The notes beneath the pieces were generated by a model. It ran no database searches. It had not been told where the DNA came from and worked only from the letters and a program-made list of their open reading frames with translations. From NCBI GenBank assembly GCA_000992345.1, contig LBUA01000004.1, positions 1 to 44,194 on the forward strand: a stretch of 44,194 bases of DNA. The letters are read 5' to 3'. Positions 209-27,799 of this stretch are shown here, one piece after another; position 1 is the first letter of the stretch; every line of letters starts with the position of its first letter. Both the position numbers and the translations under genes were made by a program. Origin of the DNA: Parcubacteria group bacterium GW2011_GWD2_38_12. Its GTDB lineage: Bacteria > Patescibacteriota > Minisyncoccia > GWC2-36-17.

Positions 209-243
209 AATCCCTTGCGATTTTAAGTATTTGCTTTGCCCAA
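95..243 (-). pseudogene. Inverted, internally deleted remnant of a serine recombinase gene
   Basis: Minus strand matches three segments of the adjacent recombinase in colinear order: 226-243 vs 630-647 (18 nt), 210-224 vs 1586-1600 (15 nt), 95-208 vs 1646-1759 (114 nt, 1 mismatch by eye). ORF 53..265 shares SNLRLASRAVRGEPVFPYLSALRAAESVGKIPESQILV with the recombinase C-terminus. Confidence 0.8.
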
Positions 244-250
244 TAAAACT

Positions 251-1768
251 ATGACTGAACAACATAAATTTTTCTTATACGCCCGCAAGTCCACAGACGT
301 GGAAGATAAACAGATGCGTTCTATCGAAGACCAGATCGCAGAATTGCGCGCCTTTGCGAAACAAGAAAATTTGAATGTTGTTGATATTTTTATTGAAAAG
401 CAAAGTGCCAAAATTCCGGGCCGACCGATATTTGGTCAAATGTTGAAAAAAGTTGAGGACGGCGAAGCCAACGGAATTTTGGCTTGGCACGCGGACAGGT
501 TGGCGCGCAATTCTGTGGACGGCGGGCGTATCATTTACCTTTTGGACACCGAAAAACTTGCGAGCTTGAAGTTTCCAACCCTATGGTTTGAAAATACGCC
601 GCAAGGAAAATTTATGTTGAACATTGTGTTTGGGCAAAGCAAATACTATGTGGATTCTCTTTCCGAAAACACCAAGAGGGGTTTGCGCCAAAAAGTGAAG
701 CGCGGAGAATATCCCGGCCCCGCGCCCATCGGCTACATAAATGACAGCCGCACTAAATCTGTGGTAGTGGACAGAAAGAAAGCAAAGGTTATTCGCGGGG
801 CCTTTGAGCTATATGCCGAGGGCAATTCGCGGTTAGAGGATATTTCAAACTTTTTGGCGCAACGCGGGATACTATCCCGTGGCGGAAAGAGAATCCACAA
901 GACGAGGGCGACTTTTATCCTCTCCAATCCGTTCTATACTGGATTATTTCGCTACTCCAAAGAATTGCACGAGGGCAAATACGAGCCAATCATCGCAAAG
1001 AAAATTTTTGATAAAGTTCAGGAAGTTTTGAAGCAGAGAGGAAGGCCGCACCACAAAACCAAATATGAGCCGCGAGATTTTTGCGGACTAATGAGGTGCG
1101 GCACTTGTGGAATGTCCATAACTGGCGAATACAGGGTTAAGAAGCAGAAAAATGGAAATGTCCACGATTACATTTACTATCACTGCACCAAGAAAAGTAA
1201 ATCAATCAAATGTCCCGAACCCTGTATTCGCCAAGAGGAACTGGACAAACAAATCTCCTCTCTGCTTCAAAAATTTTCTTTGCGTGCGGATTGGGCGGAA
1301 AAACTTTTGGCTATGGCAGAAAAAGATAAAGCGGTATCCGCCCAATCCGTTTCTGCTTTTGTTCTTGAATCTCAAATCAAAATCCGCGCCATGCAAACCA
1401 AGCTCCAGCGACTTCTCGATGGGTATTTAGAACAGGATATTGAACGCGAAATATACCGAGAACAGAAAGCGGTCTTGCTATCCGAAAAGAAGTCGCTGGA
1501 CGAGCAAATGGCGCGAATTGAACAAAAGCAAAATGATTGGCTCGAACCGATGAAAGAATGGATAAAAGTCGCTTCAAACCTCGTCAAAATCGCAAGGGAT
1601 AGCAACCTTTTGGGGAAAAAGGTTGCTGCCAAAGAAATCTTTGGCTCGAACCTGCGTTTGGCGAGCCGCGCTGTGCGCGGCGAGCCAGTGTTTCCATACC
1701 TTTCCGCGCTTCGCGCGGCCGAATCGGTCGGCAAAATTCCTGAAAGTCAAATACTGGTGGGCGCTTGA
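251..1768 (+). CDS. Large serine recombinase (resolvase + recombinase + zinc ribbon + coiled coil)
   Basis: N-terminal YARKSTD motif; HADRLARN; Cys-rich CGLMRCGTCG...YHC...KCPEP; start taken at MTEQHKFF (track ORF uses TTG at 236). Confidence 0.9.
   Translation: MTEQHKFFLYARKSTDVEDKQMRSIEDQIAELRAFAKQENLNVVDIFIEKQSAKIPGRPIFGQMLKKVEDGEANGILAWHADRLARNSVDGGRIIYLLDTEKLASLKFPTLWFENTPQGKFMLNIVFGQSKYYVDSLSENTKRGLRQKVKRGEYPGPAPIGYINDSRTKSVVVDRKKAKVIRGAFELYAEGNSRLEDISNFLAQRGILSRGGKRIHKTRATFILSNPFYTGLFRYSKELHEGKYEPIIAKKIFDKVQEVLKQRGRPHHKTKYEPRDFCGLMRCGTCGMSITGEYRVKKQKNGNVHDYIYYHCTKKSKSIKCPEPCIRQEELDKQISSLLQKFSLRADWAEKLLAMAEKDKAVSAQSVSAFVLESQIKIRAMQTKLQRLLDGYLEQDIEREIYREQKAVLLSEKKSLDEQMARIEQKQNDWLEPMKEWIKVASNLVKIARDSNLLGKKVAAKEIFGSNLRLASRAVRGEPVFPYLSALRAAESVGKIPESQILVGA
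1646..1759. repeat. Right arm of 114-bp inverted repeat, overlapping the 3' end of tRNA-Val
   Basis: Reverse complement of 95-208 with one mismatch. Confidence 0.95.
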
Positions 1769-1831
1769 GGACTCGAACCCCAGACCCTCTCGGTGTAAAC
1801 GAGATGCTCTAACCAGCTGAGCTAAGCGCCC
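1755..1831 (-). tRNA. tRNA-Val(TAC) with encoded CCA
   Basis: GGGCGCTTAGCTCAGCTGGTTAGAGCATCTCGTTTACACCGAGAGGGTCTGGGGTTCGAGTCCTCAAGCGCCCACCA; all four stems pair. Confidence 0.95.
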
Positions 1832-4886: not shown

Positions 4887-4972
4887 TGGTGCGCGGGAGA
4901 GGATTTGAACCTCCACGCCTTACGGCACATGCACCTCAAGCATGCCTGGCTACCAAGTTACAGCACCCGCGC
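4887..4972 (-). tRNA. tRNA-Leu(GAG) with encoded CCA
   Basis: GCGCGGGTGCTGTAACTTGGTAGCC...CATGCTTGAGGTGCATG...CCCGCGCACCA, long variable arm. Confidence 0.93.
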
Positions 4973-4985
4973 AAATTACAACTCA

Positions 4986-5645
4986 TTATTTATGATCAAT
5001 ATTTATTTTCAAAGCTTTTTTAATCTTTTCAAATTTTCTTGAAAGATAAGTTATATTATTAGAATAATATATTTTTGGCAATAGTTTCAAGGAATCTGCC
5101 TTTGCATATCTTAAATAATACATATTTCCATTTTGCGTAATACGACCTCTTATTTTTATTAAATTATAAATTTGGCTATCAATCCACTTAATATGCAATT
5201 CACTAGCTGACATAAACACCGTGTAAAACATAAAACTTGATTTCCATCGCTCATCCCAATATGAATAAAATGTTCCGTCGCCATCAAAATGACCTCGCAA
5301 AAAATCAAAGAAATATTGGCGCGGTATTTTTAATTTAGAAATCACCTTTGATTTTCTAGGCATAAATCCTATCTTAATTAAAAATTTATAAAAACTTATG
5401 TCTCCAAATTGAATGCGTGGAGATTTTTTACCTGTAAAACCAGAAATTTTAAAACCTATCTTTACGTCAATTCCTAAACATTTTTTAAAATTATTAAGTT
5501 GCTCAATATCATTCGATGTAAAATCAAGATGTCTCCCGTCCGGAGATAAATTACCATCGGTGGTTAAAAGTCCTATGGCATAGGCAAAATCAGGCGACCA
5601 CTTTATTTTTACTTTATTTTTTGGTTTTGGTCCTCTTTCCCCCAT
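4986..5645 (-). CDS. LAGLIDADG-family homing endonuclease-like protein
   Basis: FAYAIGLLTTDGNLSPDGRHLDFTS and FLRGHFDGDGTFYSYW, two LAGLIDADG-like helices. Confidence 0.8.
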   Translation of the reverse strand: MGERGPKPKNKVKIKWSPDFAYAIGLLTTDGNLSPDGRHLDFTSNDIEQLNNFKKCLGIDVKIGFKISGFTGKKSPRIQFGDISFYKFLIKIGFMPRKSKVISKLKIPRQYFFDFLRGHFDGDGTFYSYWDERWKSSFMFYTVFMSASELHIKWIDSQIYNLIKIRGRITQNGNMYYLRYAKADSLKLLPKIYYSNNITYLSRKFEKIKKALKINIDHK

Positions 5646-16588: not shown

Positions 16589-16824
16589 GGGAATTTTTTA
16601 AAAGCATTGCCACCTTTCCAACTTTTAATATACTTTTCTCTTTAGCGCGCCGATAACATATTATCATGTTCTTCTATGTACACTAATATCAACGGGCATC
16701 TAAACTTCGTTAAACGCATATCGCCATTATTATGTCGAACTAATCTTTCTTGGGAATATAATTCTGTAATACCTATATAATATTTGACTTTTTGACTCTT
16801 TAAAATATATACAAAGCATTTCAT
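16589..16824 (-). pseudogene. GIY-YIG endonuclease-like gene split by one in-frame TAA (16642-16644)
   Basis: MKCFVYILKSQKVKYYIGIT...EEHDNMLSAR*REKYIKSWKGGNAFKKFPSK; the part after the stop carries the typical GIY-YIG tail in the same frame. Confidence 0.75.
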
Positions 16825-16975
16825 AAATTTGGCTGGGCAAGTTAGACAATCTCCCAAATATTTTAAAAATTTACCTGAAGAAATACCAAAAAGCAATCCG
16901 CCCTTCCCTAGTTTTTATAAAAACTGGGGAAGGGCGGAAATTTACTAACAAGCTGACAACTGATTGATTAGCGAG

Positions 16976-26663: not shown

Positions 26664-26925
26664 AGCCGATGGCCAGAATTGAACTGGCGACCTACTCCTT
26701 CATTTACACCTTTGTTTTTAAAATATGCATATCAAAGGATTAGACTGTATCTTTCCGCCTGAAGCGGACCCTTGTCAGTCGTTCGGGCGCGTTATTTCAC
26801 GCCACGGTCTGAACCATGCATTAGGTCTTTAACCGTTATTCGGGATTCACTGTAAAATTACTTTTACGGTGGGCAGAAAATAATAACTCTACCATGGAGT
26901 TGCTCTACCCCTGAGCTACATCGGC
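26664..26925 (-). tRNA. tRNA-Thr(GGT), split gene: exon 1 26891-26925, exon 2 26664-26700
   Basis: Ligated exons GCCGATGTAGCTCAGGGGTAGAGCAACTCCATGGT+AAGGAGTAGGTCGCCAGTTCAATTCTGGCCATCGGCT fold as a 72-nt tRNA; U73 as in the two other tRNA-Thr genes here. Confidence 0.88.
26701..26890 (-). other. ~190-nt group I intron-like sequence in the tRNA-Thr anticodon loop
   Basis: 5' exon ends in U, intron ends in G; TTCAGAC...AAGATACAGTCT resembles R/S (P7) elements; TCCGCTTCAGGCGGA hairpin before the S-like motif fits P8; GTAAAAGTAATTTTAC fits a P2-like hairpin. Confidence 0.8.
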
Positions 26926-27509
26926 AATATGTTAACTAATAAATTTCTCAATTTAACATTACAATAATAAACTGTCATTACGCCATATTTACTTTTTTTC
27001 TTATATATCCCAAGCGCTCCTGTCCTTGTAATCATCGGTTTATATATCTGCTCTTTCTTAATCCCAAGTTCTTTTATCCAAAAATTCCGTGCTTCATTTA
27101 TATCAATATCTGAAAAAATATGCAAATGAAATTTCATATCTTCCTTCTTAATATTAAAAAACTTTATTAAAAAATCAATAAATATTTTCAACAATTTTGA
27201 ATCCGAATTACCCAACCTTACCGTATTTTTATTCGCCTTATTCCCCTCTCCCCAATACAATCCCACCCCCATCCCAAACAATTTTGCTTCTTCTAAATTT
27301 TTTGGCGGGACAAACTTAAAGGGATCGCCGTTTGGATTATTTTTAATATAAATAGCTTCACTGATAGTTCTTTTGATAATTTTATAATGCTGCAGCCAAT
27401 AATTAACTTTATTATTTGAACATTTTAAAATCTTTGCAATTTCCGGAACCGACTTACGCCCTACAATATAATATTTGTTTAATAATTTGACCTGTATTCC
27501 TTTTCTCAT
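26916..27509 (-). CDS. Homing-endonuclease-like protein with N-terminal HTH; stop codon within tRNA-Thr exon 1
   Basis: RKSVPEIAKILKCSNNKVNYWLQHY (HTH); GMGVGLYWGEGNKANKNTVRLGNSDSKLLKIFIDFL (LAGLIDADG-like); ...VNILPM* ends TTGCCGATGTAG overlapping the tRNA start. Confidence 0.7.
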   Translation of the reverse strand: MRKGIQVKLLNKYYIVGRKSVPEIAKILKCSNNKVNYWLQHYKIIKRTISEAIYIKNNPNGDPFKFVPPKNLEEAKLFGMGVGLYWGEGNKANKNTVRLGNSDSKLLKIFIDFLIKFFNIKKEDMKFHLHIFSDIDINEARNFWIKELGIKKEQIYKPMITRTGALGIYKKKSKYGVMTVYYCNVKLRNLLVNILPM

Positions 27510-27799
27510 ATAGATATTATAATCATTTTTTATATTTTGGTCAAACTATTTCTATTTAAATAACTACTTACACAAAAAACTTAACGTTTTTAAATAGTCC
27601 CAAACACACCACCATTAACCACATAAAAGATAAGCAGAGGCTATACAGATAACAATCTCAAATTTTTCTAAATAGCAAATCCTGCGCAATCAAATCCAAT
27701 TAGCGCGCGCTAAAAACCAAGTAATAACAGTGGCCATTAATAATCCCATAATAATTACTAAAGATCGAGGACCACCTGTCGCCAATACAAAAACACCAC

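Follow-up and report, generated by a model that had tools for sequence, protein, structure and literature searches.

Collaborative homing is known from phages, in cyanophage psbA and in T7-like phages (PMC3984707, PMC10448857). Group I introns of bacterial tRNA genes have been described in tRNA-Leu, tRNA-fMet, tRNA-Arg and tRNA-Ile (Paquin 1997 and Bonocora & Shub 2001, as cited in PMC3984707), and they have already been noted in tRNAs of the candidate phyla radiation (CPR) (PMC8172020). LAGLIDADG homing endonuclease genes (HEGs) occur inside rRNA introns of CPR bacteria, in an article whose text does not mention tRNA (PMC11270868), and near phage tRNA genes the free-standing homing endonuclease SegB of T4 favours inheritance of the tRNA region, as summarized in PMC3984707. 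Here we describe a locus in a 44,194-nucleotide stretch of Parcubacteria group bacterium GW2011_GWD2_38_12 (contig LBUA01000004.1, positions 1 to 44,194; hereafter the window), in which an open reading frame (ORF) ends within a tRNA-Thr(GGT) gene that is itself interrupted by a small intron. The locus is probably a collaborative-homing pair, made up of a HEG specific for tRNA-Thr(GGT) and a group I intron that spreads with it. Genes of the same type stand before many other tRNA genes, which suggests a widespread tRNA-targeting selfish element able to spread with an intron.

The split tRNA gene was called by ARAGORN in intron mode as tRNA-Thr(ggt) at c[26664,26925] with a 190-nt intron after position 36, i(36,190). 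This agrees, down to the coordinates, with an earlier model-made interpretation of the letters (the sequence-only reading), in which two minus-strand halves separated by 190 nt ligate to a 72-nt tRNA-Thr(GGT). A default ARAGORN run and the Rfam tRNA model both overlooked the gene, and the intron explains the failure of standard tools to see tRNA-Thr(GGT) in such genomes. The features of the gene and its intron are as follows.

26891..26925, minus strand: 5' exon of tRNA-Thr(GGT), tRNA positions 1-36, ending CCATGGT
26701..26890, minus strand: group I intron, 190 nt, with no internal ORF; its last base is the omega-G at 26701
26872..26893, minus strand: P1, exon GGU and intron AGA with UCUGCC, all 11 sequences having U.G at the 5' splice site
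26804..26836, minus strand: P4/P5, ACGGUU..GACCGU and GACC..GGUU
26844-26842 with 26771-26769, minus strand: P3, CCC with GGG, compensatory in 2 sequences
26776..26780, minus strand: 5' strand of P7, GACUG, with its partner CAGUC at 26747-26743; P7 is invariant
26701..26740, minus strand: P9.0/P9 and the 3' splice site; P9.0 covaries from AU/UA to GC/CG in 11 sequences
26664..26700, minus strand: 3' exon of tRNA-Thr(GGT), beginning AAGG

Eleven homologues of the intron were aligned, P1 to P9.0 were written out using a structure drawn from one member, and 66 pairs were scored, tRNA stems included. In this alignment 96.1% of cells were paired, 33 pairs were changed on both sides, and the covariation score was above that of all shuffles (0/500 reached it). 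When the 3' partners were slid, pairing fell to 35-44%, in a control that carries some bias, the structure being based on a single sequence. Real compensation inside the intron was seen in P3 (C-G to U-A), P9.0, P6, P9 and P2; double changes were found in P2, P3, P5, P6, P9 and P9.0, and P4 and P7 were nearly or fully invariant. The 262-nt precursor of exons and intron folds 4.9 standard deviations better than its dinucleotide shuffles. The observation that the 5' exon ends in U and the intron in G was borne out, with the U.G pair present in 11/11 homologues and the terminal G (G225) invariant. The motif TTCAGAC, on the other hand, had been taken for an R/S-like P7 and instead forms the 3' strands of P5/P4, P7 being GACUG/CAGUC. 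A search with Rfam RF00028, a diagnostic rather than a biochemical test that had been proposed as a check, gave no match to the Thr intron even at E=10, and the homologous intron at L189 scored 21.9 bits, under the 50-bit cut-off; it is instead the conserved core, the covariation and the invariant U.G splice-site pair that support the earlier assignment of the 190-nt insert to the group I introns. The intron model R1 placed the Thr intron in 20 of 380 sampled Patescibacteria genomes, and 19 of these matches were intron-bearing tRNAs by ARAGORN, with exon sequences that read as tRNA-Thr(GGT).

It is hardly credible that the locus is a product of chance or an annotation artefact, that is, a tRNA pseudogene with a random insert beside a spurious ORF. 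The failure of Rfam to detect the intron would fit such an explanation, but the intron is conserved and covarying in many genera, the ORF is conserved with a ratio of nonsynonymous to synonymous substitutions (dN/dS) well below 1 in relatives, and clean empty sites exist. Furthermore, an intact tRNA-Thr(GGT) elsewhere, which would have marked this copy as a pseudogene, was absent from the host genome (674 kb in 23 contigs, 96% complete) among the 36 hits of a whole-genome tRNA search and the ARAGORN calls. As the split gene is the sole copy found, it should be needed, and a pseudogene is unlikely; the pseudogene reading was therefore rejected on the covarying intron and the lack of another copy.

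Upstream of the tRNA, in the same orientation, lies an ORF that we assign to a protein family called family 1.

26916..27509, minus strand: family-1 ORF, 197 aa, putative tRNA-specific homing endonuclease with an N-terminal helix-turn-helix (HTH) and a YWGEGNK domain

The ORF (27509-26916) ends with the codons TTG CCG ATG TAG on tRNA nucleotides 1-10, the TAG being U8A9G10 of the tRNA, and its product contains the conserved block GLYWGEGNKA, E88 being the conserved acidic residue of the motif. Its position outside the intron and overlapping the 5' exon had been recognized from the letters, and proved to be conserved in many genomes. A database scan of a public genome collection returned 22 relatives, each adjoined by a tRNA gene and nearly all from genomes named as Patescibacteria/CPR lineages, a few being named just "bacterium". 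By profile search, family 1 is present in 102/380 sampled genomes, with up to 7 copies per genome. Among 126 distinct ORFs of at least 170 aa, 112 overlap a same-strand tRNA or end no more than 40 nt before its start: the stop lies exactly at U8A9G10 in 34, elsewhere in the tRNA in 20, and 0-40 nt upstream in 58. The sequence-only reading had regarded the locus as an unusual arrangement; it is not a one-off, given this phylum-wide pattern, whereas the external ORF overlapping the tRNA stands as described. Reading of the remaining loci by hand showed two ORFs that run through the entire tRNA and stop beyond it (L080 and L154, in which the protein C-terminus is encoded by tRNA sequence), two that are convergent with the adjoining tRNA-Ile (L077 and L101), and five with no tRNA nearby.

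The tRNAs next to family-1 ORFs include Thr, Ile, Gly, Lys, Phe, Arg, Met, Gln, Asn, Ala, Pro, Trp, Tyr and Val. On the protein tree the tRNA label required 35 changes, compared with 92 in shuffles (0/200), and the host-family label required 91. The Thr(GGT), Ile and Arg(CCT) clades have 99-100% support by the Shimodaira-Hasegawa-like approximate likelihood ratio test (SH-aLRT), the 22 Thr(GGT)-clade ORFs forming one branch with support 99. Since the tree follows tRNA identity and not the host, the lineages appear to keep their tRNA and switch hosts. Intact ORFs are under purifying selection (dN/dS about 0.13-0.25 in three pairs, with dS near saturation), and degraded copies were found at L050/L133, L055, L180 and L183. 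The decayed ORFs at L050/L133, L180 and L183 stand next to intact introns, which fits the life cycle of a HEG. A tblastn search of 50,697 phage records with the family-1 ORF gave no match. Distant relatives were seen on two viral contigs from IMGVR, one of 446 kb with the ORF less than 500 nt from a tRNA-Leu (L223) and one of 230 kb with the ORF just after an array of eight tRNAs (L224); such large viral contigs are possible vehicles of family 1.

The description of the ORF product as an HTH plus LAGLIDADG-like protein held in its first part, through a weak HTH match, and is weakly supported in its second, as no library contained a LAGLIDADG domain matching the ORF. Pfam, NCBIfam and PHROGs gave HTH or unrelated weak matches only. 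The best PDB profile matches of family 1 were I-DmoI chains (E 0.025), with YWGEGNK falling on the second LAGLIDADG motif. Two AlphaFold 2 models (predicted local distance difference test scores of 88 and 93) were compared with the PDB by Foldseek, the first also with viral models, giving nothing significant, and we accordingly make no fold claim for family 1. Its candidacy as a tRNA-specific HEG comes from this motif similarity together with context: site-specific positions, patchy distribution, decaying copies, purifying selection, and a LAGLIDADG family in the same niche, described below.

Across the 380 genomes, the ORF (intact or degraded) and the intron occurred together at 9 Thr(GGT) loci, the ORF alone at 7, the intron alone at 10, and neither at about 354, a count that presumes one tRNA-Thr(GGT) per genome. 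The co-occurrence that the sequence-only reading had raised is thus present, with an association of p 2e-9, or 9e-6 with intact ORFs only, both ignoring phylogeny. Within genus g37 (that of genome G275), comprising 17 species, four have both ORF and intron and 13 have neither, and the species with neither show clean empty sites (GCATCCATGGTAAGGATG). A single-marker host tree of the genus, weakly resolved, gave at least three changes of state; in g37 the putative HEG and the intron have been gained or lost together, and the arrangement is that of an ORF-less intron linked to what would be a free-standing HEG.

Several other intron-bearing tRNAs were encountered. A second group I intron in the host genome (L037, G000:C14:18391-18644; RF00028, 72 bits) is read as splitting tRNA-Phe(GAA) between U33 and G34, and reading of the sequence revealed no family-1 ORF directly upstream of it. 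At six loci elsewhere (L103, L107, L110, L128, L141 and L142) family-1 ORFs are found at tRNA-Phe, mostly followed by intron-bearing tRNAs; L103 is called Ile by ARAGORN and reads as Phe. The tRNA-Phe introns behind family-1 ORFs are of a different sequence type and occupy the 33/34 site, so that these loci are possibly a second, independent ORF-intron partnership. Isolated intron-bearing tRNAs also lie directly behind ORFs at L126 (Asn), L120 (Thr TGT) and L207 (Asp, with an ORF of the second family). At L191 (G074), a further tRNA with an intron, at 773-1056, adjoins the intron-bearing tRNA-Thr(GGT); ARAGORN gives it as Ser, and it is perhaps Tyr.

As an inverted repeat by nature, the anticodon arm of tRNA-Thr(GGT) is quasi-palindromic, with a central 11 bp of CCATGGTAAGG. 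This form is present in 98 of 126 genomes lacking both ORF and intron, and in the exons of all intron-bearing alleles examined. Among 12 ORF-bearing intronless loci it was found at one, L065 (p 3e-6, ignoring phylogeny), and natural intronless variants of the site read ACTTGGTAAGT and GCATGGTAAGC. Such depletion would be expected if the ORF product cut the site and carriers survived by intron or by substitutions. An equivalent comparison for tRNA-Ile(TAT) was dropped, as its anticodon arms are too variable for one target form. An endonuclease might instead target the tRNA 5' end or upstream junction in intronless homing, with the intron an independent passenger in the same tRNA transfer. The ORFs do lie at the tRNA 5' boundary and not at the anticodon, most tRNA types in family 1 are without an intron, and 10 introns are without an ORF; this explanation is nevertheless unlikely, for both the depletion of CCATGGTAAGG in ORF-bearing intronless tRNAs and the perfect ORF-intron coupling in g37 point to the anticodon arm. 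In addition, the upstream sequence varies between hosts although the clades are tRNA-specific, making a target within the tRNA more economical.

According to the collaborative-homing mechanism that we propose, the ORF directly 5' of tRNA-Thr(GGT) would be a free-standing HEG specific for that gene. The encoded protein, probably acting as a dimer whose chains each carry a single catalytic motif, would recognise the quasi-palindromic anticodon arm (...CCATGGTAAGG...) in alleles without the element, and donor-templated repair of the break would copy the ORF, tens of bp from the proposed break, along with any intron at the cut site. The intron would split the recognition site in DNA, thereby protecting the carrier chromosome, and by removing itself from the RNA would keep the single-copy tRNA functional; carriers without the intron would persist mostly through altered anticodon arms. 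Several points weigh against this proposal. Ten of the 19 introns have no adjoining ORF, and at L065 an apparently intact ORF and an intact intronless CCATGGTAAGG stand side by side, a combination that should be impossible under simple self-cleavage. The intron needs CCATGGT/AAGG for P1, P10 and the anticodon stem, and part of the depletion could therefore reflect intron compatibility. Shared ancestry inflates the p-values of both the site and the coupling tests, cleavage may occur at another position of the tRNA, and no significant match of sequence or fold, from libraries, profiles or Foldseek, makes family 1 an endonuclease.

The ORF is preceded by a promoter, which would drive both ORF and tRNA.

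27516..27544, minus strand: sigma70-like promoter, TTGACC-17-TATAAT, with the -10 box ending 6 nt before the ORF ATG; a leaderless mRNA is predicted

A TANWWT box ending exactly at -6 was found for 22 of 125 family-1 ORFs, compared with about 3 per neighbouring position, so many of the mRNAs are probably leaderless and ORF and tRNA would form one transcript, from a promoter upstream of the ORF. By cutting at the 5' end of the tRNA, RNase P would sever the last codons and stop from the ORF, and each transcript would thus yield a tRNA or a complete ORF message, not both. Several family-1 ORFs (L139, L166, L087, L136 and others) have inverted repeats (e.g. GAACCACG...CGTGGTTC) beside or across their promoters, and these might serve as an operator through which the HTH autoregulates. 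Maturases are known among the LAGLIDADG proteins. This, the N-terminal HTH, the promoter directly before the ORF, the inverted repeats and the ORF-intron association would all suit an ORF product that is not a nuclease but a helper in splicing or processing, or an autoregulator of its tRNA, acting in the manner of a maturase or repressing the shared promoter through its HTH. We regard that role as improbable, given that most family-1 members flank intronless tRNAs, that introns persist without the ORF, and that patchy presence, decay, tRNA-wise phylogeny and multiple copies per genome better suit a selfish element.

The window contains a second ORF type next to a tRNA, here called family 2.

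4986..5645, minus strand: family-2 double-LAGLIDADG ORF, 219 aa, ending 13 nt before tRNA-Leu(GAG)
4887..4972, minus strand: tRNA-Leu(GAG), intronless, downstream of the family-2 ORF

The ORF matches LAGLIDADG_3 at E=0.0011, below the curated cut-off, and carries two conserved LAGLIDADG motifs (..TADG.. and FLRGYFDGDG); residues D30 G31, G118 and D121 G122 D123 G124 are invariant in the family, which is related to the GyrA intein domain L222. Family 2 was found in 22 of 192 genomes, most relatives lying immediately upstream of tRNAs for Leu, Asp, Cys or Phe, and those with no adjoining tRNA include an intein-like gyrase domain and a domain joined to a topoisomerase-like gene. A comparison of families 1 and 2 by hhalign showed no convincing relation (prob 1.6), and their common position at tRNAs would therefore be either convergent or very old. 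A broader proposal, for which we see about even chances, is that Patescibacteria harbour a large undescribed class of selfish endonuclease genes, comprising at least two protein families, each gene specialised on one tRNA isoacceptor, with a stop codon embedded in the tRNA. These genes would sit between promoter and tRNA, controlling expression of the tRNA, and would cut its anticodon arm, with group I introns as protective partners.

Two further ORFs in the window end at or near tRNA genes. A 510-aa ORF at 236-1768 (+), presumably a large serine recombinase, ends inside the 3' end of tRNA-Val(TAC) at 1755-1831 (-), as in tRNA-integrated elements, and a GIY-YIG ORF of 84 aa at 16642-16896 (-) ends 61 nt before tRNA-Gln(CTG).

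If our proposal is correct, homing endonucleases would have a major niche in the tRNA genes of a phylum that accounts for a large part of bacterial diversity, and collaborative homing would extend to cellular genomes. The loci would also offer a natural series (empty site, HEG only, HEG and intron, intron only) in which to test how mobile introns arose, and numerous candidate enzymes with specificity for single tRNA genes. In the open-access literature we found no description of HEGs positioned at tRNA genes in this manner, nor of bacterial tRNAs as sites of collaborative homing. A 2025 preprint by Nakagawa et al. (bioRxiv 10.1101/2025.07.03.662931, as cited in PMC12641178) concerns, by its title, group I introns in Patescibacteria tRNAs, and may overlap with the Thr intron.

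T4 SegB resembles the Thr(GGT) ORF in being a free-standing homing endonuclease tied to a tRNA gene region. SegB belongs to the GIY-YIG family. It is thus a phage enzyme of another family, and the relevant text of PMC3984707 describes no intron partner for it. The rRNA-intron HEGs of CPR bacteria share the host group and the combination of LAGLIDADG-type endonucleases with group I introns, but their ORFs lie within the rRNA insertions. Like the known bacterial tRNA introns, the Thr intron is small, is located in the anticodon loop and has a U.G pair at the 5' splice site; unlike them, it is found in tRNA-Thr(GGT) after position 36, is RF00028-negative, and has its linked putative HEG outside. 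As in phage collaborative homing, the intron site would be the target of the HEG, and HEG and intron would move together. In contrast to the phage systems, the Patescibacteria case involves a protein family that Pfam, NCBIfam and PHROGs do not recognise beyond the HTH, has many tRNA-specific clades, and is located at tRNA genes of bacterial chromosomes, where the ORF extends over the 5' end of the tRNA.
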